Origin: Rhodothermia bacterium
GTDB taxonomy: Bacteria; Bacteroidota; Rhodothermia; Balneolales; Balneolaceae
Direction: 5' to 3'
Length of the DNA: 64,000 bases
Assembly: GCA_030427885.1 (NCBI GenBank)
Contig: JAUICM010000003.1
Span: forward strand, 186,001 to 250,000
The translations under genes were made by a program, and so were the position numbers. Under the pieces are notes generated by a model. That model worked only from the letters and a program-made list of their open reading frames with translations, searched no databases and was not told the origin of the DNA. Shown in pieces: positions 9,739-40,826 of the stretch; position 1 is the first letter of the stretch; every line of letters begins with the position of its first letter.

Positions 9739-12103
9739 GAAAGGTAGACAGGAGCGTCCCGGATATTCCTGCAATTGCCAGGTCCCCAATCGACTCCATT
9801 CCCGGGTGATCGATAAAGAGTAAGCCCATGAAACCCAGGATGGTAGTTACTGAACACGCAGAAAGAACCGGAAACTTATCCTTCAGAAAATGAGGAAGAA
9901 ATACTTTGCGGTAATTTTTCAAAGAGTCTACTAAATGGATCCCGTTATCCGCCCCAACACCAATTATGATCGGAAAAACAATCACATTGTACAGATTGAT
10001 GTCGAATCGAAAGATCAGTTTCAGTCCCAGTAGCATCATAAATGTGAGTAGCAGTGGAGCAACAGCTATCAAGGTATCTTTGAAGGAGCGGTAATACACC
10101 AGCAACAGCACTACAATAGTGAGCATTGGTGTCAGAAACAGGTAGGTCGATTCATTGATCAGCAATTCCAGAATACTTGAGGCAATGATCGAAGTACTAG
10201 CAGCATAATATTCCCTTCCTGAATCCAGTATCATGGTACCTGAACTTTTACGGAACATGATGGATGTCTCGCCATTGGATAAACTCATTTTAGGATAGAT
10301 GATTACCATCGGTGCTATCGAACCATCCTGAAAGAAAAACCTGTTTCTGATATATTTTGGCAGATTTTCCACTGTGGGAGGAACCGTCGCAAGGGCAATG
10401 TCAATAAATTCCCGGGCCTCATCACCTGCACTTTCCAGGTAGTCCTTGTTTCTGGTTATCAGGCCCAAAATTGAGTCGATTTTCTCCTTCTTTGTCTCAA
10501 ATTCTTTTTCATTGGCAGGATATCTTGCTGAAAACGACTCCACCCTTTCTATATCAGTATAGGAGTTGTCCAGACCATTGCGAATGTGATCGAAGAGCTC
10601 TTTCGATTCTTCAATTGTGTCTGTGATGTAAAAAGAAGGCTCATGATAATCGGCCCCGGTATTGACCTCTCCTGAAAGATCCCGAAATTCACTTGGTTTA
10701 GATTCCGGCTCCAGATCCGAAAAGCTAAAATTGAAACTCAGGTGGGATGATCCAAAAAAAGCGAAGCCTCCAATCACAATTAAGATACCCGGCAGGAGCA
10801 TTCTGTTGAGCGACCTGTTAGCAGAAACTTTATCCGCAAAACTACTGCTAATTGCTTCATCTTCCTGTTCATCATCAGCTTGCTTTCCCAATGATGGCGA
10901 GACCAGTAAAAACAAATAAGTAGAAATCAGATTCACAATGATGTTAATGAAAAAGATCATCCCGAAATGACGGAATCCATCAAAATCGGCGAATATGAGA
11001 CTCATGATCGCAAGCCCGGTAGTGAGACAACTTAAGATGATGGGTTTAGTCGAGGAAAAGTAGGAGCTGACAACACCTTTTAGCCCCGATGTATCGAGTA
11101 CTCCTTTTTTGTTGATAGAATATACATGGAGGATGTAATCAAGATTGATCCCAAAAAGTATACTGAATATGATCCCCGTAAATACATTGATCTCATCAAA
11201 CAGAAAAGACGATATCCCAAGTGAGATCACGAACCCTGAGAACAGAATAAAAAACACGATGATCAGGTCTGAAATTATATAAAACGGTTTATATCCTGTT
11301 CCTCTGTTCACATATAACATGTACCCGATCAGAAACAGAAACAGACTCAGAACTCCAATTATGAGAGCCTTTGAAACGGAATACTGAATATCGTTGATCT
11401 TATCATACTGGCTGACGTAGGAGCCTCCCCAGAAAAAATCAAGATGAGGATATTGTTGTTCCAGCTCTCCGGCCTTTTCAAGCAAAATATTATACGCCCC
11501 TTCAACTTTGTTGTAATCACTCTTTACAAAGTCAGGTATGAAGCTAACCCGGATCACAGTACTGTCTTCATTGATTGAATATCGCCTTGAGTTGGACACT
11601 TCCTCCAGCAACACTGAACTCTCAGCAGCTATTTCAAGCTCATTTTCCCCATTGCTGGTATCTTCATCCATTTCTACATAAAATGGATTTTCCTCCATCT
11701 TCTTTTGATCTATGTACTCTTTCAGATCTTCAAAAGTGGCATCTAACTCATCCATTGTCATCAGATACAAAGCTGAATACCGGATATCATACAGATCGTT
11801 CTCAAGTTCTGCTGCCCTGAAGATCTTTGCCCCCTGATCCTTCAGCTCAAGTATATCAACAGTAATCGCTTTTGCTTTAGTGACCAGGTAATCTCCATCG
11901 TCCGATCGTATGATGAGATCGAATCCACCCTCACTGTTGTTCAACCTTGATAGCTCCCGATAGGTTGAGAGGTGTACGTTTTCGGTTGGTAATAAGGCTA
12001 TCAGCTCTCCGTTAAATTCAAGGTTCATACTTCTGTTTAGCGCATAAGCGAACAGAGCACAATAGATCAGGATAAATACAATTAACAGGTTCCTGGGCTT
12101 CAT
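9695..12103 (-). CDS. MMPL/RND-family exporter, probable lipid transporter
   Basis: The 802-residue chain has the internal duplication typical of MMPL/HpnN proteins. There is a first transmembrane helix at residues 5-25, a large periplasmic domain to about 230, and a helix bundle with FTGIIFSILFGINLDYILHV. A seventh helix near 435, a second periplasmic domain and a final bundle with VIIGVGADNGIHLVDSL follow. The GxxxDY/GxDN elements in helix 4 and 10 regions match proton-relay positions of the family. Family members export lipids and hydrophobic molecules. Its start overlaps the AEP transaminase stop by 4 bases, so its cargo is probably the phosphonate-containing lipid made by the operon. Confidence 0.88.
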   Translation of the reverse strand: MKPRNLLIVFILIYCALFAYALNRSMNLEFNGELIALLPTENVHLSTYRELSRLNNSEGGFDLIIRSDDGDYLVTKAKAITVDILELKDQGAKIFRAAELENDLYDIRYSALYLMTMDELDATFEDLKEYIDQKKMEENPFYVEMDEDTSNGENELEIAAESSVLLEEVSNSRRYSINEDSTVIRVSFIPDFVKSDYNKVEGAYNILLEKAGELEQQYPHLDFFWGGSYVSQYDKINDIQYSVSKALIIGVLSLFLFLIGYMLYVNRGTGYKPFYIISDLIIVFFILFSGFVISLGISSFLFDEINVFTGIIFSILFGINLDYILHVYSINKKGVLDTSGLKGVVSSYFSSTKPIILSCLTTGLAIMSLIFADFDGFRHFGMIFFINIIVNLISTYLFLLVSPSLGKQADDEQEDEAISSSFADKVSANRSLNRMLLPGILIVIGGFAFFGSSHLSFNFSFSDLEPESKPSEFRDLSGEVNTGADYHEPSFYITDTIEESKELFDHIRNGLDNSYTDIERVESFSARYPANEKEFETKKEKIDSILGLITRNKDYLESAGDEAREFIDIALATVPPTVENLPKYIRNRFFFQDGSIAPMVIIYPKMSLSNGETSIMFRKSSGTMILDSGREYYAASTSIIASSILELLINESTYLFLTPMLTIVVLLLVYYRSFKDTLIAVAPLLLTFMMLLGLKLIFRFDINLYNVIVFPIIIGVGADNGIHLVDSLKNYRKVFLPHFLKDKFPVLSACSVTTILGFMGLLFIDHPGMESIGDLAIAGISGTLLSTFLISLVVESFRSETE

Positions 12104-13191
12104 TGATTTGCTAAATACTCCCGGATTACCTCGCCAACATACTTCATATCCTCTTTATTAAGGTCACCGATAACAGCCATCCTGAAGGTTTTATTTTCCG
12201 GTATAACCCCGGGATATACAGTAATATTCCTTTCGTATAAATAGTCATGGAAGTCATCAAATCCTTTCGGTAGTTTTTCGTCCAGATTTATGGCCATCAA
12301 TATTTTTGATTGTTGCTCCATAGGAAGAAAGAAAGTAAACCCGAGCTCTTTCATCAAATCATACAGCATCTGCCAGTTTTCCTGATACCTTTCCCATCTT
12401 GCCTGAACCGTTTCCTCTATGGTCTCCTCTATCGCCTTATGGAAAGCATAGCTGATCTGAACAGGAGGAGTGAACCGAAGCTGATTCTTCTCCTTCAAAT
12501 GATACCATTGCTTGTAAATATCAAAATAGAAGTTCCGAGTATTATCTTTTAGTTCATCCAGCTTATCTTTATGAAATACCACAAAAGCCAGACCAGCCAT
12601 TCCCTGGATACATTTATTTGATGAAGCCGCCAGATAGCTCACTTTGGTTTTCATCAGATCAATCGGATACCCTCCGTAAGAGCTCATTGCATCCACAATC
12701 AGATCAATACCCAGTTCCTCGCATAATTCAGCTGCATCTTCGAGAGGATTCATCATCCCGGTAGACGTCTCATGATGGATCATTGCCAAATGGGTAAAAT
12801 CTCCAGCAGATAACTTTTCTTTTATCAGGGTCAGATCCGGATACTCGCCGTATTTATGGACAGTATCAAAATTCAAGCCGTAAGAGTGGCATATATCAGC
12901 CATTCTGATTCCATACGCACCGTTTTTTACGATCAGAACTTTCGAATTCTTACCAATCGCAGAAGTTAACATAGCCTCAACTGCTCCGGTTCCACTGGCC
13001 GGAAACATACAGGCTTCATACTCACCTTCTCCGTTCCCGATCTTAACCAATCCTTCAACAATATCCTGCATCAGGTCTCCGAATTCATCCTCTCTGGGAC
13101 AAATATCATTTACAACCAGCGCTTTTTTTACTGAATCGGAAGTTGTACCCGGACCGGGGTTTAGTAAGATCTTTCTTTCCAGATCATTCAT
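12100..13191 (-). CDS. phnW: 2-aminoethylphosphonate:pyruvate aminotransferase-like enzyme
   Basis: A fold-type I aminotransferase of 363 residues with the PhnW-like opening (KILLNPGPGTTSDSVKKAL), the SGTGAVEAML cofactor loop and DAMSSYGG. The probable pyridoxal phosphate lysine is Lys193 in ASSNKCIQGMAG. PhnW is best known from degradation of AEP. Beside PEP mutase and phosphonopyruvate decarboxylase it should run in the synthetic direction, aminating phosphonoacetaldehyde to AEP. One base separates its start from the decarboxylase stop. Confidence 0.92.
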   Translation of the reverse strand: MNDLERKILLNPGPGTTSDSVKKALVVNDICPREDEFGDLMQDIVEGLVKIGNGEGEYEACMFPASGTGAVEAMLTSAIGKNSKVLIVKNGAYGIRMADICHSYGLNFDTVHKYGEYPDLTLIKEKLSAGDFTHLAMIHHETSTGMMNPLEDAAELCEELGIDLIVDAMSSYGGYPIDLMKTKVSYLAASSNKCIQGMAGLAFVVFHKDKLDELKDNTRNFYFDIYKQWYHLKEKNQLRFTPPVQISYAFHKAIEETIEETVQARWERYQENWQMLYDLMKELGFTFFLPMEQQSKILMAINLDEKLPKGFDDFHDYLYERNITVYPGVIPENKTFRMAVIGDLNKEDMKYVGEVIREYLANQ

Positions 13192-13192
13192 G

Positions 13193-14323
13193 TCATTCCT
13201 CTCCTTCAGATATAAATTTCATGAAGTCTTTCTTGTTGTCTTTGGGAGCTATTGTCGGCCTTCCCAGCTCTTTACGGGAACCTGTTTTTGTCATTATTTC
13301 CAGCAATACAGGACCTTCATGTGTTACGAATTCAGGCAGTACTTTTTCTAATTCTTCTCTTGTTGAAATACGAAAGGCATTCTTGTATCCACAGGCATCG
13401 GCTATCTTTCCAAAATCTGTCACAAATCCGGCCGTTGGCTGACCTCCAACCGATTCATGGGCACCGTTATTAATCAAAATGTGTTTAAAGTTCTTCGGTG
13501 CAAGTTCACCGATAACTGCCAGTGAACCCATGTGCATGATCATAGCCCCATCACCATCAATGCAATATACTTTTCGTCCACTTTTTTCAAGGGCTATTCC
13601 CAGAGCGATCTGTGATGCATGCCCCATACTTCCGACTGTCAGGAAATCGCGTTGATGTCCCTGATTCTTTTCAGCTCTGAGCTCAAACAACTCCCTGGAA
13701 GTCTTGCCTGTTGTAGATACTACTATGTCAGAATCCCCCAAATGAGCTGAGATCACTCTCAGAACTTCTTCTCTTTTGAGTGTGTACACTGATGATGCCT
13801 CTTCGGATTTCAGCACGTATTCCTCAAAAGTATCCGGTGGTACCAGCAAGGCCGAAGGCCCTGAAGTTTTTTGTATGGTTTGAATTACTTCCAAAACCTG
13901 CTCTCTGGCTTTATCTTCCTCCCCTGATAAAATTATATAAGGAAGTTCCAGAGCCTGAAGCTGAGCCTCCATGGTTCGGCCCTGTTTTACATGCTGTGGC
14001 TCGTCTTTTTTACCAGGCTGACCCCTCCATCCGATCATAAGCAGCATAGGAATAGAATACACCTCGTTATCGACAAGTGAAGTAAGCGGATTTACTGTAT
14101 TTCCAAAACCTGAGTTTTGCATATACACCATCGGTATTTTTCCAGTTGCCAGATGATATCCAGCTGCAATACCAATGGCCGCGCCTTCATTTGCTGCTAT
14201 GATCCTGCTACCCTGATCGAAAGCATAGGAGCAATAGTATTTCAACAAAGAGTCAGGAACACCAAGGCTAAAATCGACTCCCTGATCTTTTAGCAGTTCA
14301 TATAAGAATGCTGGTTTTAACAT
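13193..14323 (-). CDS. ppd: Phosphonopyruvate decarboxylase
   Basis: This 376-residue ThDP enzyme is the normal length for Ppd. It carries the catalytic Glu region in the N-terminal domain (AANEGAAIGIAAGYHLATG, MQNSGFGNTVNPL) and the ThDP/Mg motif GDG near residue 257 ending in NN about 28 residues later (INNGAHESVGGQ). It decarboxylates phosphonopyruvate to phosphonoacetaldehyde, the step that pulls the unfavourable PEP mutase reaction forward. It lies 7 bases downstream of the PEP mutase gene. Confidence 0.94.
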   Translation of the reverse strand: MLKPAFLYELLKDQGVDFSLGVPDSLLKYYCSYAFDQGSRIIAANEGAAIGIAAGYHLATGKIPMVYMQNSGFGNTVNPLTSLVDNEVYSIPMLLMIGWRGQPGKKDEPQHVKQGRTMEAQLQALELPYIILSGEEDKAREQVLEVIQTIQKTSGPSALLVPPDTFEEYVLKSEEASSVYTLKREEVLRVISAHLGDSDIVVSTTGKTSRELFELRAEKNQGHQRDFLTVGSMGHASQIALGIALEKSGRKVYCIDGDGAMIMHMGSLAVIGELAPKNFKHILINNGAHESVGGQPTAGFVTDFGKIADACGYKNAFRISTREELEKVLPEFVTHEGPVLLEIMTKTGSRKELGRPTIAPKDNKKDFMKFISEGEE

Positions 14324-14330
14324 GTTCTCC

Positions 14331-15623
14331 TTAATTAGGCAGGATCTCCAGGATCTCCTTGATGGACATGCAGTATTTATCTGCTTCCAGCGATCGCTTG
14401 TTCTCCAGGATCGTCTCCGCTGTTTTTTTCATCGCCGGAAAAGCACTTCTTAGGAGATGGTTCGCATAGATCACCACGCTGAAGCCAGCTTCATACAGTT
14501 CATCTTCAGTAAACTGGTTGTATGAAGAAGGAACAGATATCACCGGGACCTTATACTCAAATTTCTTGTATTCCTTCATAAACTCCATGATCTCAGAACC
14601 ATCTTTATGCCGGCTGTGGATCATGATCCCATCGGCTCCTGCTTCGATATATGCTTTTGCCCTTTTCAGAGCTTCTTCCATTCCAGCATTTGCGATCAGG
14701 CTTTCAATCCGGGCAATGATCATAAAGTCAGAAGTTAGCTGTGCTTTCTTACCGGATGATATCTTCTCACAAAACACATCAATATTTTCCAGTTCCTGCT
14801 TTACATTCGTACCAAACAGTGAATTTCTTTTTAGTCCAGATTTATCTTCAATGATCATTGCGGAAACACCCAGGCGCTCCATGTTTTTGACCATCATTGT
14901 AAAATGCTCGGTCAAACCACCAGTATCGCCATCCAGTATGATCGGTTTTGTGGTTACTTCGAGGATGTCGTTTATAGTCTGAATCCTGGATGTTCTGTCT
15001 ACATACTCAGTATCTGGTTTTCCTTTAGCTGTTGAGTCGGTTAAGCTACTCACCCACAGGGCGTCAAATTCTCTTAATTCCCCTTCGGCTTCCACTTTGG
15101 TCTCTTCCACGATCAATCCGGAAATCCCGTTATGTGCTTCCAAAACCCGTACGATGGGTTTCGCTGCCAGCAAACGACGAAGCATTCTCCTCCTAATATC
15201 CGGAGTAGTACCTACTTCCCGCATGGCATTTCTCAAGCCTGTGGATGAGATCCCGTCTGTGTAATCCGGTTCAACGAGTTGCCCATCCCATTCCTTCAAA
15301 ATCCGGATCACTTTATCACGAATATGCTTCTGAGGCCCAACCTGCCAATCAGTTCCATGAACCACATAATCTGGCCTCAATGCTCTCAGATTCTTTTCAT
15401 AGTCCAGTTCTTCCTGCAAGATCACTTTTGATACGCCCTTAATATTTTCCAGAATTCGTTTACGTTCCTCATACTCCAAAAATGGCATCCGGCTATATTT
15501 GGTTACTGCTTCATCAGATAGTAACCCTACCGTGACCTCTCCCAATTCCCGGGCTTTCTCGATTATATTAATATGACCGTGATGTATGAGATCTGTACCC
15601 ATACCCACATATACTTTTTTCAT
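14331..15623 (-). CDS. pepM: PEP mutase with N-terminal cytidylyltransferase-like domain
   Basis: Two domains are fused in 430 residues. The first (about 1-140) is a nucleotidyltransferase of the GCT/TagD type with HHGH at residues 14-17 and ISSTG near residue 125, a variant of the RTxGISTT motif. The second (about 155-430) is PEP mutase with the diagnostic EDK-x5-NS motif at residues 259-268 (EDKSGLKRNS) and LDGDTGG. PEP mutase forms the carbon-phosphorus bond of phosphonopyruvate from PEP. The N-terminal domain suggests a phosphonic acid, perhaps a product of this pathway, is nucleotidylated; this part is inference. It is the first gene of the operon running to the MMPL exporter. Confidence 0.95.
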   Translation of the reverse strand: MKKVYVGMGTDLIHHGHINIIEKARELGEVTVGLLSDEAVTKYSRMPFLEYEERKRILENIKGVSKVILQEELDYEKNLRALRPDYVVHGTDWQVGPQKHIRDKVIRILKEWDGQLVEPDYTDGISSTGLRNAMREVGTTPDIRRRMLRRLLAAKPIVRVLEAHNGISGLIVEETKVEAEGELREFDALWVSSLTDSTAKGKPDTEYVDRTSRIQTINDILEVTTKPIILDGDTGGLTEHFTMMVKNMERLGVSAMIIEDKSGLKRNSLFGTNVKQELENIDVFCEKISSGKKAQLTSDFMIIARIESLIANAGMEEALKRAKAYIEAGADGIMIHSRHKDGSEIMEFMKEYKKFEYKVPVISVPSSYNQFTEDELYEAGFSVVIYANHLLRSAFPAMKKTAETILENKRSLEADKYCMSIKEILEILPN

Positions 15624-17050: not shown

Positions 17051-17124
17051 CGGGGCGTGGCGTAGCCCGGTAGCGCGCTCGGCTGGGGGCCGAGAGGTCG
17101 CAAGTTCAAATCTTGTCGCCCCGA
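17051..17124 (+). tRNA. tRNA-Pro (anticodon GGG)
   Basis: A full cloverleaf can be folded. The acceptor CGGGGCG pairs with CGCCCCG, followed by discriminator A. The D arm contains AGCCCGGTAGC. The anticodon stem CTCGG/CCGAG encloses the loop CTGGGGG with GGG at positions 34-36, and the T arm is GCAAG-TTCAAAT-CTTGT. The C1-G72 pair is typical of bacterial tRNA-Pro. The 3' CCA is not encoded. Confidence 0.93.
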
Positions 17125-17132
17125 CTTGTACA

Positions 17133-17373: not shown

Positions 17374-17449
17374 AAAGAAATGGCTAGCCCGGTAGCACGT
17401 CCCTACAAGAGTATAGGGAAGGTCGCAGGTTCAAATCCTGTCATCCCGA
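17374..17449 (+). pseudogene. Degenerate tRNA-like sequence (tRNA-Pro relative)
   Basis: The stretch has a good T arm (GCAGG-TTCAAAT-CCTGT), a 3' acceptor half CATCCCG plus A, and the D-arm segment TAGCCCGGTAGC that is identical to tRNA-Pro(GGG) upstream. The 5' acceptor half is AAAGAAA and cannot pair with CATCCCG. The anticodon stem TCCCTA/TAGGGA encloses an 8-base loop. It therefore cannot form a normal tRNA and looks like a relic whose 3' half is best preserved. Confidence 0.6.
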
Positions 17450-17469
17450 CTCTTTTATTTTATCTCGTA

Positions 17470-19143
17470 CTAAAAACGAATCCCCACAGAATATTTTAGA
17501 ACAAGATCAGGAACGGCAAGCACTGTAACCCCTACATCAATATTATTGAAGATGCTGTATTGTCTTCCCATAGAGAATGTTTGGGGTAGTGGGAGATCCA
17601 GTGTGGATTTTAAGCCTTCATTGCCAGAGCTTACAAGGGCGTCTCCTATTAATACATTGGTACCAAACCTGTAATGGGAGTTCGAATAGTTGGTAAACCT
17701 GCCCAATGACTGAAACAGGACTCCATCAAAATCCAGATAAAGGATGCGTACCGGGATCTCAAGGAACTGCCACCAACTGTTGAACTGATCTTTCATTCTG
17801 AAGTCAAAACCTAGCCCTATTCCATGTTCGGCATTTTTCCCAATAATGTTATCGCCATACTCATATGAAAAGGAATCAAAGTATTTGGTATAGTTAAGTA
17901 CCATGGTATGCCTGCCCATAAAAAGGTCCACCCCGATTCTTGCCGATGACGGCAGGGTCAAAACACCATCTTCCACTATGGACGAAATATCTCTTTCAGT
18001 AGTAAGATTAGGCTTATTGGCCTGAAGACTATCCAGTGAAACCTGAATATTACCTTTAAGGATTTCTTCACCAGTTCCAACCATGAAAATCGGAAGATAT
18101 GTTTGTGCGATTTTATTATTCCCCTTTAGATTGAATGCCGGCATATGATCATATACAGCCGAAAGATTCAACCAGGACAATGGCTGGTAATTCAGGCCTG
18201 CTTTAAACCCATAGGCAGACGCTTCGAATTCTCCATACGCATTCATAAAAAATGCATTCGATTCCCCGGCTTCGGTATTCAGATTGGGGTCATCGGGATT
18301 ATTGAAATAACGCTCATCTGCACCACCAACAACAACCATTCCAGACAGATCGGCTTCAAGCTTACGGGTATTGTCAATATGATAGCGAGTGATCGTTCCG
18401 CCAAAGGCCAGTTTTTTGGTCTCCGTATCGATGAAGCTATATCCGAATCCTGCCGAAAGTGTATTCATCTTGAAGGTCATCTTCGTTAGTAAAGAAACGT
18501 TCATCAGTACATCAAAACGAATAGCCACTTCTTCAGTTCCTTGTTCCTGGGCAAGCTTAGCCGCCAGACCGGTTACCCCAAGATCAAAATTTATTGAAGC
18601 CGGGTATGTATATGCTCCGGCTATACTCAGTTTTGGCCCAAGTGGAGCAGCAAATGCAATCGAGGAAACCTCACTATCAAATCCAACATCCAGATCTCTG
18701 ACTTTTGTTGCCTGAATGTAGGTTTCCGGAAACTTCTGCCACGAATCTTCTTTTGCAAATTCATCATTTATTGCTGTTTCAAGCTGTGAATTCACCTCTC
18801 CTTTTATAAATGAATTCATACCGGATGTAAGTGAACTGCCCACACCAACGCGGCTGTCATAGGTGATCTGGCCTTGTCTCATATAGCCCAGTAATGCCGG
18901 GTTCAGGTTTACATTTAGCGCGCCATTATGAGCTCGTGACGTAACCAGTCCTCCCATCCCCCCTGAACCGAGACTACTTCCGACAGTATTCACACCCATA
19001 CTAAAATTCAGGTCCATATATCCACCCCGGAATAAATGCAGTTCGTTCGGAGAACTATCCTCTTCCTGGGCAAATACCCCGGATGGCATGTATGTGATCA
19101 TGATCCCAACTAACAAAATGATATGTACTCTTTTTAATCTCAT
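17470..19143 (-). CDS. Outer-membrane beta-barrel protein of unknown function
   Basis: The 557 residues begin with a signal peptide (HIILLVGIMITYMPSGVFA, cleavage near AQE). They continue with alternating polar/hydrophobic strands and glycine-rich turns, ending KYSVGIRF with a terminal Phe, the usual barrel end. The NVNLNPALLGYM tract recalls FadL/TraF-type and PorV-associated barrels, but I do not recognise a defined family. It is the last gene of an operon with a PorV-like protein and a giant repeat protein, so it may belong to their export or surface assembly. Confidence 0.75.
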   Translation of the reverse strand: MRLKRVHIILLVGIMITYMPSGVFAQEEDSSPNELHLFRGGYMDLNFSMGVNTVGSSLGSGGMGGLVTSRAHNGALNVNLNPALLGYMRQGQITYDSRVGVGSSLTSGMNSFIKGEVNSQLETAINDEFAKEDSWQKFPETYIQATKVRDLDVGFDSEVSSIAFAAPLGPKLSIAGAYTYPASINFDLGVTGLAAKLAQEQGTEEVAIRFDVLMNVSLLTKMTFKMNTLSAGFGYSFIDTETKKLAFGGTITRYHIDNTRKLEADLSGMVVVGGADERYFNNPDDPNLNTEAGESNAFFMNAYGEFEASAYGFKAGLNYQPLSWLNLSAVYDHMPAFNLKGNNKIAQTYLPIFMVGTGEEILKGNIQVSLDSLQANKPNLTTERDISSIVEDGVLTLPSSARIGVDLFMGRHTMVLNYTKYFDSFSYEYGDNIIGKNAEHGIGLGFDFRMKDQFNSWWQFLEIPVRILYLDFDGVLFQSLGRFTNYSNSHYRFGTNVLIGDALVSSGNEGLKSTLDLPLPQTFSMGRQYSIFNNIDVGVTVLAVPDLVLKYSVGIRF

Positions 19144-19145
19144 AT

Positions 19146-20129
19146 CTAAAAGCTTATCGCGAAGCTGAATCTTAATGTGTTGTATATCGGATCGATCACA
19201 TAAGCAAAATCTGACTGTATCCTGAGTTTATTTCGTATCTCAATATCCAGGCCCGTTCCCAGTGTATATTTATCATCATCAAGTTGATTAACCCCTTGTT
19301 CAGTACCCGCCCTGAGCATTAGTATTTTAACCAGTCTGCCTTCTAAACCTATTCTCACCCAGTTGGTTCTTTCTCCGGTTAAGGCCGGTTGAAAATCTCC
19401 TACTGCTATCAGATTATCTGAAACTTTAAACGATGAACCTACGATCAATTCCATCGGCATACCCTCTTCGTAGGATCCTTTCGGGTTATAGCCACTTCCT
19501 CTTGCTTTACTGTTCCAGTTGATGGGTGCATATATATCGCGGAGCATTACTCCAAAATTCATCTTTCTTGTGGGGTGAAACATGAGGCCAAGATCTACAC
19601 CAAATCCATTTGCATCGCCATATACCTGCTGATTAAATCCTGCATCGATCTCACTCTCATCAAAAACGATATAGTCTTCTCTTCGAAGGGTGTTGTTGCC
19701 AAACGCCGCATTTCTGTATTTGACTCCCAAACCAATGCTGATGAATTTCAGCCGGATGCCATAGGCCGCATGAACAGAAAGCTCATTCATCATCTCATCT
19801 CCTGAAGACAATACCGAGAATCCCACTGACTGCCCTTTGAAAGGAATGGGCACCAATGCAGCAAAGTAGTTATACTTTATGATCCCGAACTGATCTGTTT
19901 GAGAAAAACTGACTTTATACTCATTCATTTGCGACAACCCAGCAGGGTTGAGATAGCTGGAATTTTCATCATCTGCAAGGCCTACATAGGCAAAACCCAT
20001 ACCTACCGGACGAGTACCGAAACCGATATCGACAAATGATCCGGGTATGCCCGACAATTCCTGAGCATAGGTAACCTCAGTAGTAACCCCCAATATCAAA
20101 AACAATAATATTGCAGTTATTCTTTTCAT
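19146..20129 (-). CDS. PorV/PorQ-family outer-membrane protein
   Basis: A 327-residue barrel with signal peptide (ITAILLFLILGVTTEVTYAQ). The N-terminal motif IGFGTRPVGMGFAYVGLADD followed by YLNPAGLSQM is characteristic of PorV/PorQ proteins. PorV of the type IX secretion system is a shuttle that receives secreted cargo at the outer membrane. The start overlaps the stop of the giant repeat protein by 4 bases (ATGA), and two bases separate it from the next barrel gene. Its pairing with a large secreted protein suggests a dedicated partner, which is inference. Confidence 0.85.
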   Translation of the reverse strand: MKRITAILLFLILGVTTEVTYAQELSGIPGSFVDIGFGTRPVGMGFAYVGLADDENSSYLNPAGLSQMNEYKVSFSQTDQFGIIKYNYFAALVPIPFKGQSVGFSVLSSGDEMMNELSVHAAYGIRLKFISIGLGVKYRNAAFGNNTLRREDYIVFDESEIDAGFNQQVYGDANGFGVDLGLMFHPTRKMNFGVMLRDIYAPINWNSKARGSGYNPKGSYEEGMPMELIVGSSFKVSDNLIAVGDFQPALTGERTNWVRIGLEGRLVKILMLRAGTEQGVNQLDDDKYTLGTGLDIEIRNKLRIQSDFAYVIDPIYNTLRFSFAISF

Positions 20130-23100
20130 TTCACTAACACCACCTGAAGTAATTTAACCACTTCGTCCTGCTGGTCTTTTGCTTTTATCTGTATGATATA
20201 GCGGCCATTTCGAGCCATATTGCCTGCATCCGTTAAACCATCCCATGTAATCTCTTTGTTACTCGAAGAGGAGCCATATCTGCCCGGTTGCTGAAGATCA
20301 TCGTCCAGAAGGGTACGAACCAGTTCCCCCCTCATATTAAAGATCCGGACATTTACTCTTGCCGGAGGAAACGCAGTATCCAGCCAGTAGCCGATTTTTA
20401 CGGGTGCAATTTCCGGGGAGAATGGACTAGGTAACACTGCTGCATATTTAATTCCTAACGGCTCGTTTTCAGCCATTACTGCGAACTGACCCAGCTGCTC
20501 AATATTTACCGCTCCTGCACTGTTTGCAGCAAAAGATTTTGCGTTACTCTCCTCGAGTATCTCCCATTGAAGGGTAGTGAAATTAAATCGTCCAATTTTC
20601 TTTTCACCGGAATTAAGGCTCAAAGATGAATCTTGTGGAAGAATTAAACTGGCTGCTTTTTTAAGATCACTTCCTGAAAAAGACAACACATAGATCTTAT
20701 CTGAAACAGTGTAACTGGTATTTGTACCCTGTGCGAACACAAATTTCTTCGTTTCCGGAGGAGTGGTTTCCCCAAGTGATAATTGCGAAGGAATATCAAC
20801 GGAGCCTTCTTCAAAATTTAATTCCAGACCGTTACCATCCGATAGTATATAACTTGCTTCCGGTTCGATCTGCGCGGTTAATTCAACAAGATCCGAAACG
20901 CCTGACTTATTTGATATCGGATCCGACACCTTAACCCGGAAGGATCCTATCATCAGATCATTCTCTGGCTGGAAAAGACCTCTGTCATCAATACTTCCTG
21001 AAGCTGATGGTATGACCTCCCATTTCAGGCTTTCTCCCAGAATGACCGAACTACCCGAAGTATCCACAGCGCTATAGCTAAAAAGATGATCCTCGGAATT
21101 CGCGATCTGCTTAGCCGGGACGCTCACACTTATCTCTTTTATGGGGATGTTGGTAACTTCAATATCAAGATTTTCACTGATCGTGGTTCCATCCAGGTTT
21201 ACCAATACCTGTAGTTTATAGAAGCCTGCTTTTTCAGCATCCAGTTTTACGGTGGTTCCATCCTGTTCATATAATCTTATTCCCGGGTTTTCAGAAAGAA
21301 CTTCCCATTCAATACTACCATCAGAAGCTGTCCCTTCGAATTCATTTTCCAATGATTTATTGATCCCATCTCTTACAAATAATTCAATGTTGTAGCTGTC
21401 ACCAACCCGGAGTGACTGGCCGTCAATTGTTGGAGTAACACGAATATTGCTTAGAATACCGCTGGCTAATGGTACAATGGAACTTTCTGAACTGACATAT
21501 ACATTGTTCCGGTTGGTATCGCTTATGGTAGCGTAGAAAGAGACTTCTTCTACTGAACCAAACTCAGGGAGGAATGCCACCAAAGTATCACCATTTGTGA
21601 CAAATGTAGTTTCGCTGTACTGACTTTCTGAAGCTTTTTTATAAAACAGGGAGCCTGATGCACCACTATTATCATAACCTGATGCATTTACCACACTAAC
21701 CTTAGTCTGTTCATCCGCCAGTATTTCCTGAACCTCCAGTTGTTTGTATGGCAGATAAACATTGCGCTCCAAAGCAGCGGTATCAGAAGGCAGCTCTATT
21801 CTTATTGTATTTTGAGGATATAAATACCCCTCTTTTGAAACACTGACAGTGTATGTTGCCTTTCTCAGATTTTCTGAGGACTGAAACTGTCCGTCAGTGC
21901 CGGTTATTTCAGATTCCGATGCACCACCGGAGATGCCAAATACAACCTCGGCGCCTTCAATCGGGCCATCACCATCTGTAACGAGAAGTTCGATTTTACC
22001 ACTCGGCAGATTTGTGAGTGGCATTGTAACTGTTTTCCCAACTTTATCTGAGCTTATTTTTGCCGTATATGTTTTGGTGAAAACACCCTCAACTATTTTA
22101 ATCTGGTAAACAGTAGTATCATTCTCACCCGTCTTTATTGGCAGATTTCGAAACTGATATTTACCCGAAGAGTTAGTAACCGCTTCATATGTTCCTGTTG
22201 ACAAGGCGGTAACTGAAATTCCTGAAACTCCTTCTCCGCTTAGTTTTACATTTCCGGCAATGGTCACAGCAGCGGGTGATAATGTCAGTTTATCTGCATC
22301 AAGGCTTTGACCTGCATTAACGGTAACCTCTACTGTATCTGGTGTGAATCCCTGCTTATTTGCTATTAAAGAATAGGTTCCTGAAGCCACACTGGCAAAG
22401 CTGTATTTACCGGATTTATTGGTCTCAGCTTCAACAGATTGCCCTGTTGATACAAAAACGGCTGTAACTGTAGCCCCCTGCAAAGCAGACTCAGAATCTC
22501 CTGAAACTGAATTTACCACTCCGTTTATTCCTGAGCTGTTAGCTTTAAGAAGAAATGAGGTTGAAAGTGAGTCCCCCGATTGTAAAGTTATATCCTTACT
22601 GGTTGGCTCTGCGGTATAGCCATCCTTTACTGGTCTGACTATATAATATGTGGATGCCTGGATTTTGCTGAAACGTGCAATTCCTGATGAGCCGGTTTTC
22701 GTTGAAAGTATTACAGTTGTATCTGCTGATATTATTGTCACATCTACCCCGGATACCCCTTTCTGAGCTTCATCTTTAACCAGCACATCCAAAGTAGCTA
22801 TATTGGCAACTGCGTTGAAATTCGTTGTTTTCGAATCTTCACTTCCCAATGTTATCGCAGATGAAATGGCAGGAGAAAAGCTATAGCCCTGTTTTTTAGG
22901 TTGCACTTTATAGTTCCCCGAACCCAGAAAGCTAAAGGTATAATCTCCACTGTTATCCGTTTTTGTAAGTTCGATGATCTCCTGTGTATCAGCATCAATA
23001 AGTGAAAGTGTTGCACCACTGATAGAGGTACTTCCTGAAATACTGGATTTCTTAACTATTACTTCAAGGTCGTCTTTTAGTACCACCTGGCTGGCCCCAA

Positions 23101-26100
23101 CAGGAACCTGTACAGAAGCTTCCACATTTTCATATCCATCCTTATAGATATCTGTTGATATATTATAGGATAACCCGGTCTCCACGCCTTCAAAAGTAAA
23201 TGCTCCGGAAGTAGAGCTTAATGTGCTGTAAGATTTATCTGCGGCACTTGCATTAACTGAAACCCTGAATCCTAAAGTATTTCCATCCGGGTCGATAACA
23301 GAACCAACAATCTTACCATTATTTGCGCGGAGAGTCCTGTTCACACTTACGGTTGGGTCTGAAGACGGAATCGTGACCTCTGTTGTGTCAGATTTAAAAC
23401 CAGTTCTGGAACTTATTACGTTATAGGATCCCGGACTTAAGTTAGTAAGCTGTATTACTCCTGAAGAGTTTGTTAACCCGAACGCTGAACCTTTTGAACC
23501 AACGGCTGATACCTGAACATTTTTCAGAGGGGAAGAACTTGCCAGGTCTTTGATAGTCGTATTTATAACAGCATTATTCGCAACCAGATCTGTGATATTA
23601 ACCCCAGTCTTTGTTAACGATGATTCAGTTAATGTTGTATTGGCTTCCGTATCCGAACTATAACCTACAATAGACGCGTTAATAGTATATGCTCCTAATT
23701 CCAGCGAACTCATTTCATAAGTACCTCGTGAATCAGTGACTACGGTATATTCATTACCGGATTCACTGACCGCTGAAACGGTAACATCAGCTAAAGCATT
23801 GCCATTTGTATCAGTGATCCTGCCTGAAATTGCTCCATTCTTTTCTGTTAGCTTCTCATCAACCGCAACATAGTCACCATCTTTCGCAGATCTGCTAATT
23901 GTTTTTTCAATAAAGCCTTTCTTCGAAATTACTATTGAATAATTGCCTCCCGTTAATCCTGAGAAGCTAAATGAACCACCCTGATCAGTTACAGAACTGG
24001 CTCCCCCGCCACTGGCCTTCCTCAGATTCACAAATACCTGTTCAAGAGGATTCCCGTTTTCATCGGTAATATTTCCACTTATGAATACAAAATTTTCGGC
24101 TAGTAAATAATTAACCCCTGTTAAATTCTGACCAATATTCAGAATCGTCTTTTTCTCTGCGGTAGAATATCCGGGTTTAACAACTTTCAGCGTATAGGTT
24201 CCCGGATTCAGCCCGAGTAAATAACTCCCGTTACTTTTTGTATTAGTGCTATCCTGCTTTATACCGTTTGTATCTATAGCAATAACTTTTGCTCCAGATA
24301 ATGCCGTACCACTTTCCACTGAAACGATACCACTTACCGAACTGGGATTCGCCGATAAGCTAAAATCTTTTATGACTGTTTGCTCCGGTACCAGAATAGC
24401 TGTAGTTGAACTGGCCGTTCTGTATCCATCCTTCAACACAGACATATTATAACTTTTCCCGGCTGGTATGCTTAATGCAAAAGTACCGTTGATCTGCGTA
24501 ACCGTGCTTTGGCTAAAGGTATTTCCTTCTAAACCACTTACTATTACTGTCACATTTCGAAGCGGATTTGTTCCATCCGTAATAGTACCTCTGATAGTTG
24601 TCAGATTTTTTGTTAACGAAAAATTCTGATTTACAAGCTGCTGACCAGGTCCCACACTTTTGACTGATGTCGAATCGGTTAGAAAACCCGACTTTACTGC
24701 TTTCAGATACCAGTTCCCTGATTTTATATTAAAAGAGAATGATCCATCCAGATTATTAACTAATGATACTTTCTCCTTCGTTGTGTTATTAATGGCATAC
24801 ACTGTTGTATTCGATAGCGGCTCACCGGATGAGCTTACTTTACCAGAAATCACCCCCGCATTAGGAGTCATTGTGAAGTTTACTCCTGTCAGATTTTGGC
24901 CGGTATTAATCGAAATATTCTTCCCGGCAGGTGACACCAATCCTGTTTTTGACACATTTATCAAATGAGATCCCTGTGGTACACTTAATTTGTAAAATCC
25001 ACTACTTGAGGTTATCGCTGTTCCAATATTCTGAATGATAACTTTTGCATCCGCAACTCCATTGCCATTCGGCAAAGTTACAACTCCTGAAATAGAACTT
25101 GGGTTGGGAGTCAGTTCAAAATCCATTCCCGAAACAGTTTCCCCTATCGCGATCCCGATCACCAGTTCCCGATCCTGGGTTGACGTATAGCTTGGCTTCT
25201 CAGCCTGAATAGTATATGAACCACTTTTTAAACTCAGTGTATACTGTCCATTCTTTTCTGTAACAGTTGATATCGGAGAACCGATATTCGGAACAGCCGT
25301 AACTGTTATTCCTTCAAATGGAGCGGTTCCCACTGTTCCATTCTCACTTGTGATCCTCTCCCTTACAAAGCCTACTACCTGATTTGCATTTCCTGCAAGC
25401 GTAAAATCCTGATTACTCAATAAATCACCGGTTGAAAGACTTATTGATTTCGATTTAGGCTTAACAAAACCAATTTTGTCAACTGAAATGCTCCACGTTC
25501 CACTGGCAACCGTGAATTGAAATACACCTGACCCATTTGTTTTTGTTACATAGCTTTTATTCCCTTTTGTGATGGTGACATTTGCTCTTTGAATTGGTGC
25601 TTTGTCCTGGTTATAAACAAAACCAGACACCGTCGCCTGATCATTTGTTAATACAAATGGTTCGGTAAGATCTTTTTGTTCATTTTGATTAAGCGTTACA
25701 GAAACAGTTGATGGGCTTATAAATCCTGATTTTTGAACATTTATCGTATAAGAACCTTTCGACAGAGGAATACTAAACTGGCCATTTATATTGGTTGTAG
25801 TTTGTTTTTCAATATTAGTGGACTTATCAACTACTTTTACAGTTGCATTGGAAACGTTAGCACCCGTTTCATCCTTCACCAGACCTTTTAAAGAGGAAGG
25901 AAAAGGCTCCATTAGAATATTGAACCTTTTCGTTTTATCAGCGGTAATCACCGTCTGAAGAGTGGTGGTCTTATATCCTGTTTTTACTGCCTTAAATTCA
26001 TATGTACCAGCAACCAGACTGTCATCGTATGCCTCACTTTGGACAAAATATGGAATAGATGGTGTCACACCACCTGATATCGCTCTTGCCGATAACTCAA

Positions 26101-27268
26101 CACCCAGTAGACTCGAATTATCAGTACTTGAAACTATTTCTGTCCTGAACTCCCCTGTATCAACCCTGTATTGAAATGATTTGTTTGAACTTGTAGTACC
26201 CCCACCATTCGAATTATTGGCGATAACATTCCAAATGTAAGTCCCGTTTTTAAGATTCTGAATAGCAGGATATTCAATCAGTGTATTTGTTGTCGTGCTG
26301 GTCCAGATAGGAACCGTTACATCAATACCCTGTTGGGTAACTATCTGTAGTAAATTGATTGTGTAATTTACTGCTTTCTCTACCTTGCTCCACTCGAAGG
26401 TTATGGTATTTTCTGAGAAGAATGTTGAATTATCAGCAGGGCTGATAGTATTGGGTTTTGCTACAGCATTAGGGTCAACAAAAGTGAATGGAATTATCCC
26501 ACCAAAAACCGGGCTTGTATAAACGGGGTTATTTTCTTCATATACATTAAGAACTGTATAACTGTATTCCTTCCCTGCATTAAGTGGAGGGGCATCATCT
26601 TTGAAAGGAGATTGCAGATTAACAGATCCATATTCTGCGGTAGTACCCTTTGTGATATACTGCCATACTATAGTTGCTCCTTCAATGGAAATATCTCCAT
26701 TTTCATCTTCTACAATATCAAAAGGAGTACTTGAAACGATCAACCAATATGAAGGAACTCCTGCGATTGCAGACCACTGAAAGGTAGGTGTGGGATTGGT
26801 GATGTTCCCTCTTGGATTTATTATTCCAGGTGCTTCGGAGGCCTCCACCAAAAGTAAAATCTCATTAGAATAAATAATAGATCCCGGATTGGCATCATGA
26901 TCAGCTTTTATTTCCGCAGTTGTCTTTTTTGAAGAGTTTGTTATGCGTGCATAATACCTGCCTGCTCCAAGTTTGATATCATTTGGTATCAGATCTTTTC
27001 TGTTTCCTGATACAGGAACCTCGATTGTATTATAAGAATTAGACGACCTACCAATAATCAAACGGGCATTTTTGTCGGAGAGATTTAAACCCGATCCATC
27101 CGCTTTTGTCCATACTAACCTGAATGGTTTAGATTTCTTAAGTAATAGTTTTACTACATAGTCTCCATCCGAATCCTGAGCTTTGGCTGGCTGGAGTATG
27201 AACGTTTGACTGTATACTTCGATCGAAGTAATACAAAGGATGAGCAGAATTAATTTATATACCCTCAA
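20126..27268 (-). CDS. Giant secreted protein with about 16 CarboxypepD_reg-type repeats and a FlgD/T9SS-like C-terminus
   Basis: The 2380-residue protein starts at a TTG; no in-frame ATG lies upstream before a stop. After a signal peptide (YKLILLILCITSIEVYSQ) there are fibronectin-like segments (to about 450). About 16 tandem units of 80-90 residues follow (about 455-1840), each with a variant of SGxVxDxxGxPLxxVxVxA, then GxYxFxxLxxGxYxIxxxKxGY. Bacterial Ig-like segments come next, and a final domain (about 2269-2380) has LPSPFSPEIAPVKIGYWLD, GELVRTL and ITWDGLTDAG. That last domain resembles FlgD-type and T9SS sorting domains. It is likely a long surface stalk or adhesin. It is the first gene of the operon with the PorV-like protein. 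Confidence 0.85.
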   Translation of the reverse strand: MRVYKLILLILCITSIEVYSQTFILQPAKAQDSDGDYVVKLLLKKSKPFRLVWTKADGSGLNLSDKNARLIIGRSSNSYNTIEVPVSGNRKDLIPNDIKLGAGRYYARITNSSKKTTAEIKADHDANPGSIIYSNEILLLVEASEAPGIINPRGNITNPTPTFQWSAIAGVPSYWLIVSSTPFDIVEDENGDISIEGATIVWQYITKGTTAEYGSVNLQSPFKDDAPPLNAGKEYSYTVLNVYEENNPVYTSPVFGGIIPFTFVDPNAVAKPNTISPADNSTFFSENTITFEWSKVEKAVNYTINLLQIVTQQGIDVTVPIWTSTTTNTLIEYPAIQNLKNGTYIWNVIANNSNGGGTTSSNKSFQYRVDTGEFRTEIVSSTDNSSLLGVELSARAISGGVTPSIPYFVQSEAYDDSLVAGTYEFKAVKTGYKTTTLQTVITADKTKRFNILMEPFPSSLKGLVKDETGANVSNATVKVVDKSTNIEKQTTTNINGQFSIPLSKGSYTINVQKSGFISPSTVSVTLNQNEQKDLTEPFVLTNDQATVSGFVYNQDKAPIQRANVTITKGNKSYVTKTNGSGVFQFTVASGTWSISVDKIGFVKPKSKSISLSTGDLLSNQDFTLAGNANQVVGFVRERITSENGTVGTAPFEGITVTAVPNIGSPISTVTEKNGQYTLSLKSGSYTIQAEKPSYTSTQDRELVIGIAIGETVSGMDFELTPNPSSISGVVTLPNGNGVADAKVIIQNIGTAITSSSGFYKLSVPQGSHLINVSKTGLVSPAGKNISINTGQNLTGVNFTMTPNAGVISGKVSSSGEPLSNTTVYAINNTTKEKVSLVNNLDGSFSFNIKSGNWYLKAVKSGFLTDSTSVKSVGPGQQLVNQNFSLTKNLTTIRGTITDGTNPLRNVTVIVSGLEGNTFSQSTVTQINGTFALSIPAGKSYNMSVLKDGYRTASSTTAILVPEQTVIKDFSLSANPSSVSGIVSVESGTALSGAKVIAIDTNGIKQDSTNTKSNGSYLLGLNPGTYTLKVVKPGYSTAEKKTILNIGQNLTGVNYLLAENFVFISGNITDENGNPLEQVFVNLRKASGGGASSVTDQGGSFSFSGLTGGNYSIVISKKGFIEKTISRSAKDGDYVAVDEKLTEKNGAISGRITDTNGNALADVTVSAVSESGNEYTVVTDSRGTYEMSSLELGAYTINASIVGYSSDTEANTTLTESSLTKTGVNITDLVANNAVINTTIKDLASSSPLKNVQVSAVGSKGSAFGLTNSSGVIQLTNLSPGSYNVISSRTGFKSDTTEVTIPSSDPTVSVNRTLRANNGKIVGSVIDPDGNTLGFRVSVNASAADKSYSTLSSTSGAFTFEGVETGLSYNISTDIYKDGYENVEASVQVPVGASQVVLKDDLEVIVKKSSISGSTSISGATLSLIDADTQEIIELTKTDNSGDYTFSFLGSGNYKVQPKKQGYSFSPAISSAITLGSEDSKTTNFNAVANIATLDVLVKDEAQKGVSGVDVTIISADTTVILSTKTGSSGIARFSKIQASTYYIVRPVKDGYTAEPTSKDITLQSGDSLSTSFLLKANSSGINGVVNSVSGDSESALQGATVTAVFVSTGQSVEAETNKSGKYSFASVASGTYSLIANKQGFTPDTVEVTVNAGQSLDADKLTLSPAAVTIAGNVKLSGEGVSGISVTALSTGTYEAVTNSSGKYQFRNLPIKTGENDTTVYQIKIVEGVFTKTYTAKISSDKVGKTVTMPLTNLPSGKIELLVTDGDGPIEGAEVVFGISGGASESEITGTDGQFQSSENLRKATYTVSVSKEGYLYPQNTIRIELPSDTAALERNVYLPYKQLEVQEILADEQTKVSVVNASGYDNSGASGSLFYKKASESQYSETTFVTNGDTLVAFLPEFGSVEEVSFYATISDTNRNNVYVSSESSIVPLASGILSNIRVTPTIDGQSLRVGDSYNIELFVRDGINKSLENEFEGTASDGSIEWEVLSENPGIRLYEQDGTTVKLDAEKAGFYKLQVLVNLDGTTISENLDIEVTNIPIKEISVSVPAKQIANSEDHLFSYSAVDTSGSSVILGESLKWEVIPSASGSIDDRGLFQPENDLMIGSFRVKVSDPISNKSGVSDLVELTAQIEPEASYILSDGNGLELNFEEGSVDIPSQLSLGETTPPETKKFVFAQGTNTSYTVSDKIYVLSFSGSDLKKAASLILPQDSSLSLNSGEKKIGRFNFTTLQWEILEESNAKSFAANSAGAVNIEQLGQFAVMAENEPLGIKYAAVLPSPFSPEIAPVKIGYWLDTAFPPARVNVRIFNMRGELVRTLLDDDLQQPGRYGSSSSNKEITWDGLTDAGNMARNGRYIIQIKAKDQQDEVVKLLQVVLVK

Positions 27269-27583: not shown

Positions 27584-27991
27584 ATGAGAGGCTCAGTTAA
27601 AATATTATTAATCGTTTTAGGTACCATTTTCCTACCTGGCTTGGTACAAGCCCAGAAAACAGCTACAGCAACTATGAGAGTAACTGTAACAGTTGTGAGT
27701 GGCGCTACTCTTACAGATGTGACACCTTTAGAAATGGATCTTGTTAACAATGAAGTAAAAGGTGGAACTTTCAGATTTACAGCTGCGGCTAATACAGATG
27801 CCGAGGTCACTATATCTGAAAATGTTACTTTGACAAACCAATACGGAGAAGAATTGACACTGAAATCTGACAGCCTCCATAAAATTGAAAAAAATATTCA
27901 CGAGGTTGATATAGATGTTGATCTTCCCCAAAAAAGAAAATTAAACGGTCAGTTTACCGGCACTCTTGTAACCACGGTTTACTACCTGTGA
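27584..27991 (+). CDS. Small secreted beta-rich protein (DUF4402-like)
   Basis: The 135 residues have a signal peptide (KILLIVLGTIFLPGLVQAQ). An all-beta mature part follows, with TATATMRVTVTVVSGATL, and it ends GQFTGTLVTTVYYL. The pattern of repeated short strands and the ending resemble DUF4402 and pilin-like secreted beta-sandwich proteins, but the match is by eye only. It is transcribed away from the giant repeat protein across a gap with a long inverted repeat. A terminator follows. Confidence 0.65.
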   Translation: MRGSVKILLIVLGTIFLPGLVQAQKTATATMRVTVTVVSGATLTDVTPLEMDLVNNEVKGGTFRFTAAANTDAEVTISENVTLTNQYGEELTLKSDSLHKIEKNIHEVDIDVDLPQKRKLNGQFTGTLVTTVYYL

Positions 27992-40631: not shown

Positions 40632-40826
40632 ATGAGTACATCCTCTTCTACTGATCAATCTGCACATGATCATCAAGCTGTTAAACAGGCGCAGCAACCC
40701 CGTCGTTGTATTTATTGCGGGCAGCATGCGGAACTTGTTTGGGTTCATGGCCACGGCCAATGTGCCTCTTGTGGAATCAATACAGATGAATGTTGCCGTG
40801 GCGAGAGTTGTGGTTTTGATCAGTAA
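40632..40826 (+). CDS. Small zinc-ribbon-like protein
   Basis: The 64-residue frame contains CIYC and CASC separated by about 18 residues, enough for a zinc ribbon, and a second cysteine cluster near the end (CCRGESC). The ATG is chosen because a further upstream start would lie inside the YitT gene. Its 3' end overlaps the convergent TamB gene by 7 bases. The role is unknown. Confidence 0.65.
   Translation: MSTSSSTDQSAHDHQAVKQAQQPRRCIYCGQHAELVWVHGHGQCASCGINTDECCRGESCGFDQ

Follow-up and report, generated by a model that had tools for sequence, protein, structure and literature searches.

All type A C-terminal domains (CTDs) of type 9 secretion system (T9SS) substrates are said to rely on one PorV, with cognate shuttles only for type B substrates (PMC12618676). 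The PorP/SprF shuttles of the type B CTDs are a precedent for such pairing (PMC12618676). A lysine near the C-terminus is almost invariant in type A CTDs, and the contact face of those served by the general PorV is poorly conserved (PMC10994853). The CTDs of PorZ and PorU are held uncleaved by PorQ and PorV (PMC10202324). Here we describe an operon in a 64,000-nucleotide stretch of a Balneolaceae genome (Rhodothermia bacterium, GCA_030427885.1, contig JAUICM010000003.1, positions 186,001 to 250,000), referred to as the window. It encodes a giant tandem-repeat protein, a PorV-like protein, and a second barrel (Table 1). We consider it reasonably probable that the product is a surface rod of constant length, exported by the T9SS and provided with dedicated outer-membrane partners; export, rod shape, and anchoring are what we infer. 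Directly supported are the parts themselves, the obligate linkage of the three genes, a number of domains that does not vary, the homology of the giant's C-terminus and of both barrels, and SprA in the carriers checked.

Nineteen loci, in genomes ranging from Balneolales to Melioribacteraceae, encode a complete set of giant, PorV-like protein, and barrel in the same order. Twelve of these, the window included, came from a search with the PorV-like protein and seven are more distant. A twentieth locus is incomplete only because its contig ends. The named carriers are Balneolaceae, Balneolales, one 'Bacteroidetes bacterium', and Melioribacteraceae. Identity between some of the loci is only 25-30%, and the spacing between genes ranges from an overlap of a few bases to about 23 bases. 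In the window a 4-base overlap joins the giant and PorV-like genes and a 2-base gap separates the latter from the barrel gene, so one transcript with translational coupling is likely. In a sample of 394 genomes from the phylum, the barrel profile finds 16 genomes and the head profile 16 strongly, with 15 common to both. The only two singletons are damaged loci: one (G072, L063) retains eroded pieces of all three genes, and in the other (G382, L152) the giant stops after its third repeat, and the stretch read contains neither partner gene. The unrooted trees built from the three proteins have broadly the same shape. The genes flanking the trio differ between loci, indicating that the unit is the trio itself, and the 19 complete loci rule out chance neighbours. 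Judged by its sequences, the trio is an obligate, ancient unit. The initial annotation had placed a PorV-like protein and a further barrel beside the giant and proposed looking for the same gene order in related genomes; both genes lie where it put them, the PorV relative is an obligate neighbour, and the order recurs in all 19 loci.

The number of repeats is constant. In 16 aligned giants the total length is 2,352-2,416 amino acids and the array 1,441-1,479, and all 17 repeats are present in each. The same-numbered repeat is the best match for 17 of 17 repeats in nine of eleven homologues, for 15 of 17 in one, and for 10 of 17 in the most distant tested (24% identity). Mean identity among the repeats inside the window giant is only 28%. 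Given this same-position matching and the low internal identity, the array most likely formed once, before the lineages split, with no detectable gain or loss of units since. The constant length and one-to-one repeats point to a fixed-length rod rather than an adhesin with variable repeats, a candidate we rejected because all 16 aligned giants have 17 domains. The constancy of repeat number and total length across distant genomes is the strongest feature of the system, and the initial annotation passed over it.

The giant is a 2,380-residue chain with a head, a repeat array, Ig-like domains, and a C-terminal domain. Pfam finds 16 CarboxypepD_reg (PF13620) stretches in it (combined E 1.4e-160), and the alignment of homologues adds a seventeenth at residues 372-456 that Pfam missed. 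The repeats are all of one fold according to Pfam and to matches with transthyretin-like (TTR-like) folds, which answers the concern that they might belong to unrelated folds and agrees with the array of about 16 units first read from the sequence. Single TTR-like domains from the modelled N-terminal half match the regulatory TTR domains of carboxypeptidases D and N with Z about 14 and a root-mean-square deviation of 1.3-1.4 Å. The head resembles fibronectin III (FN3) domains of contactin, NCAM, and Dscam (Z about 10, VIA-align), and residues 1841-2269 match LigA Ig-like domains by profile (E 3.5e-4). The giant has the only long CarboxypepD_reg tandem array in its genome. The other matches there are nearly all single, mostly in open reading frames (ORFs) of 300-1,100 amino acids, and are of the kind known from TonB-dependent receptors. 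The array is therefore exceptional, as had been proposed.

A FlgD-like C-terminus had also been proposed for the giant. In the whole chain FlgD_ig scores 22.8 bits, below the Pfam cut-off of 27, and a scan limited to the C-terminal 540 residues raises it to 29.0 bits, above the cut-off. Aligned with the canonical type A CTDs of its own genome, the giant's C-terminal domain gives a probability of 95%, E 4e-8, and 30% identity over 69 columns (hhalign). By this profile comparison it is a distant, divergent relative of the type A sorting domains. No other part of the giant is as well conserved (70% mean column identity); the head is also among the most conserved parts. Every aligned homologue ends in K, and we assume this residue to be equivalent to the near-invariant lysine of type A CTDs. 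The Pfam and NCBIfam scans, those of the C-terminal 540 residues included, listed no type B family (CHU_C/TIGR04131) for the giant. A type B or SprB-like substrate was rejected since no type B CTD is listed and the partner is well below the PorP/SprF cut-off. CTDs sharing the general PorV have a poorly conserved contact face, and the giant's CTD is fully conserved beside a dedicated PorV relative, so a one-to-one pair would fit.

Other FlgD_ig-type C-termini offer a lead. In this genome a PorV-family gene directly follows three of the seven genes with FlgD_ig-type C-termini and no TIGR04183 match, as against one of the 76 canonical ones (Fisher p 0.0015), in classes that were set after the pattern was noticed and with one of the three a weak FlgD_ig match. 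The single canonical case is a PorU-like gene adjoining PorV. Within a polysaccharide locus (L068:9619-13189; G000:C2, about 402,600-406,200), two PorV-family barrels come, with overlap, after a 530-residue BNR protein whose C-terminus is of the FlgD_ig type. This layout, a CTD protein and two barrels, is that of the giant operon.

The NCBIfam PorV/PorQ model NF033709 gives the PorV-like protein 75.4 bits over residues 32-327, under the cut-off of 90; three of its homologues score 25-86 bits, also under the cut-off. A profile of the homologues finds Flavobacterium johnsoniae PorV (6h3i chain F) with E 2.1e-7 in the N-terminal part. Against the PorP/SprF model the protein scores 22.8 bits (cut-off 90.55). 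The genome has 11 PorV-family matches, and the operon's protein is among the weaker ones. For the second barrel there was no NCBIfam match, and Pfam PF03349 scores 20.9 bits, below its cut-off of 29.7. Its AlphaFold model (predicted local distance difference test, pLDDT, 83.5) matches the FadL homologue 3dwo with Z 26.1 over 326 residues at 4.5 Å and PorV in 8gl6 with Z 23.8. The FadL-family matches lie clearly above non-FadL barrels (Z 17 or less), and the third gene's product is thus predicted to be a FadL-fold barrel. Profile comparison finds the PorV-like protein and the second barrel weakly related (probability 78%). The BamG subunit is among the structural neighbours of the second barrel. 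A tie of the module to BAM was rejected for want of operon or sequence evidence.

The giant could instead be an adhesin that the general PorV exports like any type A T9SS substrate, with the two barrels doing other work such as transport of hydrophobic compounds. In favour of this, its CTD shares homology with type A CTDs, canonical CTDs occur in other large ORFs of the genome (2,811-5,280 amino acids), and FadL-fold proteins are frequently channels. We nevertheless consider this unlikely, as no intact giant lacks either barrel wherever the flanks are readable, the three gene trees agree, and the CTD, without the canonical motif set, is unusually conserved over the whole domain.

In NOMO1, eight visible domains span 24 nm, or about 3 nm per domain (PMC8327139). 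With this spacing, 17 domains would extend about 50 nm, which is a plausible span for the giant's array alone if extended. A periplasmic or inner-leaflet scaffold, spacing membranes in the manner of NOMO or building an outer-membrane complex with both barrels, would also account for the fixed length of the giant. Comparable arrays act as spacers in eukaryotes, where the 24-30 nm NOMO1 rod sets endoplasmic reticulum spacing by its length (PMC8327139). At about 3 nm each, however, the 17 repeats and the other domains exceed the usual periplasm, we noticed no membrane anchor apart from the CTD and barrel pair, and the CTD is related to a secretion signal, so that a scaffold seems quite improbable.

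For the surface rod that we favour, the following course can be proposed. The giant would reach the periplasm via Sec by its signal peptide. The FlgD_ig-like CTD would then be taken by SprA and received by the co-encoded PorV-like barrel rather than by the general PorV, a handover suggested by homology, linkage, and precedent. The PorV-like barrel may retain the CTD without cleavage, and the membrane anchor may be completed by the FadL-fold barrel. The 17 TTR-like domains would fix the distance between the fibronectin-like head and the membrane, at about 50 nm for the array if extended, and there the head would bind a partner or surface. The SprA translocon is encoded in 18 of 18 carriers checked. 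Together with the type A-related C-terminus, this indicates that the general T9SS is most likely used, and the 'self-contained' system of the initial annotation is probably wrong. An export path made by the two FadL-superfamily barrels alone, in a module independent of the T9SS, would explain why both are always present and is very improbable, given SprA in every carrier checked, the T9SS-like CTD, and the bore of 14-strand FadL-type barrels, which is much too small to pass folded domains.

Several points weigh against an exported rod of selected length. At an E threshold of 0.1, TIGR04183 has no match at the giant's C-terminus; its sole match in the giant ORF falls within the repeats, and elsewhere in this genome it has about 76 matches. 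FlgD_ig domains are also known from proteins unrelated to secretion. SprA is widespread in the phylum (302 of 394 genomes), so that its presence in all 18 carriers, with a chance of about 0.014 uncorrected for kinship, is consistent with T9SS export and weak support for it. Diverged repeats seldom recombine, and a constant copy number need not mean a selected length; selection for length and a lack of recombination between diverged repeats are two readings that both fit the data. Finally, the AlphaFold model of residues 22-1143 (mean pLDDT 83, predicted template modelling score, pTM, 0.35) predicts the domains well and leaves their relative orientation undefined, which makes the rod shape an extrapolation. 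Of the rigid rod of tens of nanometres first suggested, a length of about 50 nm or more is plausible when extended, and rigidity is not borne out by this model.

A more specific version of the surface rod seems to us possible but rather doubtful. Selection would keep exactly 17 rod domains as a spacer, with the head at a set height, a two-barrel anchor, and a PorV paralogue that never releases the CTD, and FlgD_ig CTDs with their own PorV-family barrels would form a separate class of T9SS cargo.

Table 1. Features of the operon in the window (positions of the 64,000-nucleotide stretch; residues of the encoded protein).
Feature	Position	Strand	Size or residues	Basis
Giant gene	27268-20126	minus	2,380 aa, TTG start	ORF reading
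Signal peptide of giant, plausible, MRVYKLILLILCITSIEVYSQ	27206..27268	minus	residues 1-21	read from sequence
Head, about three fibronectin III-like domains, well conserved	26156..27205	minus	residues 22-371	AlphaFold model, structural matches, conservation
17 CarboxypepD_reg/TTR-like domains	21749..26155	minus	residues 372-1840	Pfam, one-to-one orthology, fold matches
Ig-like/BIG2-like domains	20462..21748	minus	residues 1841-2269	profile match to LigA
C-terminal domain, FlgD_ig-like	20129..20461	minus	residues 2270-2380	Pfam, profile comparison, conservation
PorV-like gene	20129-19146	minus	327 aa	
PorV/PorQ-family outer-membrane barrel, proposed cognate shuttle or anchor	19146..20129	minus	327 aa	NCBIfam, profile match
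Second barrel gene	19143-17470	minus	557 aa	
Second barrel, predicted FadL fold	17470..19143	minus	557 aa	AlphaFold, fold comparison
Strongly conserved segment of second barrel	18256..18339	minus	residues 269-296	conservation

An intact tRNA-Pro(GGG) (17051-17125) and a degenerate 3' tRNA-Pro-like piece (17421-17451) lie just downstream of the operon. A tRNA-Pro(GGG) is near the operon in three other loci too (L050, L051, and L052), in a different relative orientation, and this proximity could reflect insertion at a tRNA hotspot. Divergent from the giant gene, positions 27584-27991 encode a secreted protein of 135 amino acids with no family assigned; homologues with about 36% identity occupy the same place in L051 and L052. 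Horizontal transfer between Balneolales and Melioribacteraceae-like genomes was considered, since these show greater similarity to one another than the same-class family f10 does; the unrooted trees do not decide for or against it. Plasmid carriage was rejected, as a tblastn search of PLSDB gave no match. Elsewhere in the window, a phosphoenolpyruvate mutase fused to a cytidylyltransferase-like domain has as neighbours an aminotransferase and a protein that reads as decarboxylase-like (12100-15623), which looks like a set for 2-aminoethylphosphonate biosynthesis. TamB-like and Omp85/TamA-like genes are adjacent at 40820-47337 with a one-base overlap.

We found no description of the module in the open-licence literature on PorV-like or PorV2 proteins, the T9SS together with carboxypeptidase regulatory-like repeats, FlgD, or Balneola or Ignavibacteria, the Balneolaceae T9SS, or tandem CarboxypepD rods, and an earlier one elsewhere is possible. 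If the proposed pairing is true, a type A-like but divergent CTD that always comes with its own PorV paralogue would break the division of shuttles between type A and type B substrates, and might help explain why genomes like this one have about 11 PorV-family genes. In addition, a repeat protein whose domain number stays constant between distant classes offers a natural system for testing how the length of bacterial surface rods is controlled.

In the SprB-SprF and other type B-PorP/SprF pairs of F. johnsoniae, a large surface protein carries a T9SS signal at its C-terminus and its dedicated barrel shuttle is encoded directly downstream, as is proposed for the window; some of those operons have a third partner gene, which is PorE-like (PMC12618676). 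Unlike them, the window giant has no listed type B CTD, its barrel is nearer PorV/PorQ than PorP/SprF (75 versus 23 bits), a FadL-fold barrel stands in place of PorE, and the putative rod is of constant length. As in PorZ-PorQ and PorU-PorV (PMC10202324), the CTD is proposed to escape cleavage and stay attached to its cognate PorV-family barrel. PorZ and PorU themselves act in processing, whereas the cargo here would be a rod of some 25 domains with an obligate second barrel. The general PorV with its type A substrates RemA and RemZ (PMC10994853) shares with the window a PorV relative, an Ig-like CTD, and a lysine at the C-terminus. It serves many CTDs through a poorly conserved contact face, in contrast to the one highly conserved CTD and one dedicated barrel of the window. 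NOMO1 of the endoplasmic reticulum is likewise a rod of consecutive Ig/TTR-like domains whose length sets a distance (PMC8327139), but it is eukaryotic and membrane-anchored, has no barrels, and is related in sequence only through the shared small domains. Among these systems the module is best filed as one that appears to behave like a cognate shuttle pair, yet falls outside the curated models tested for type A and type B substrates.

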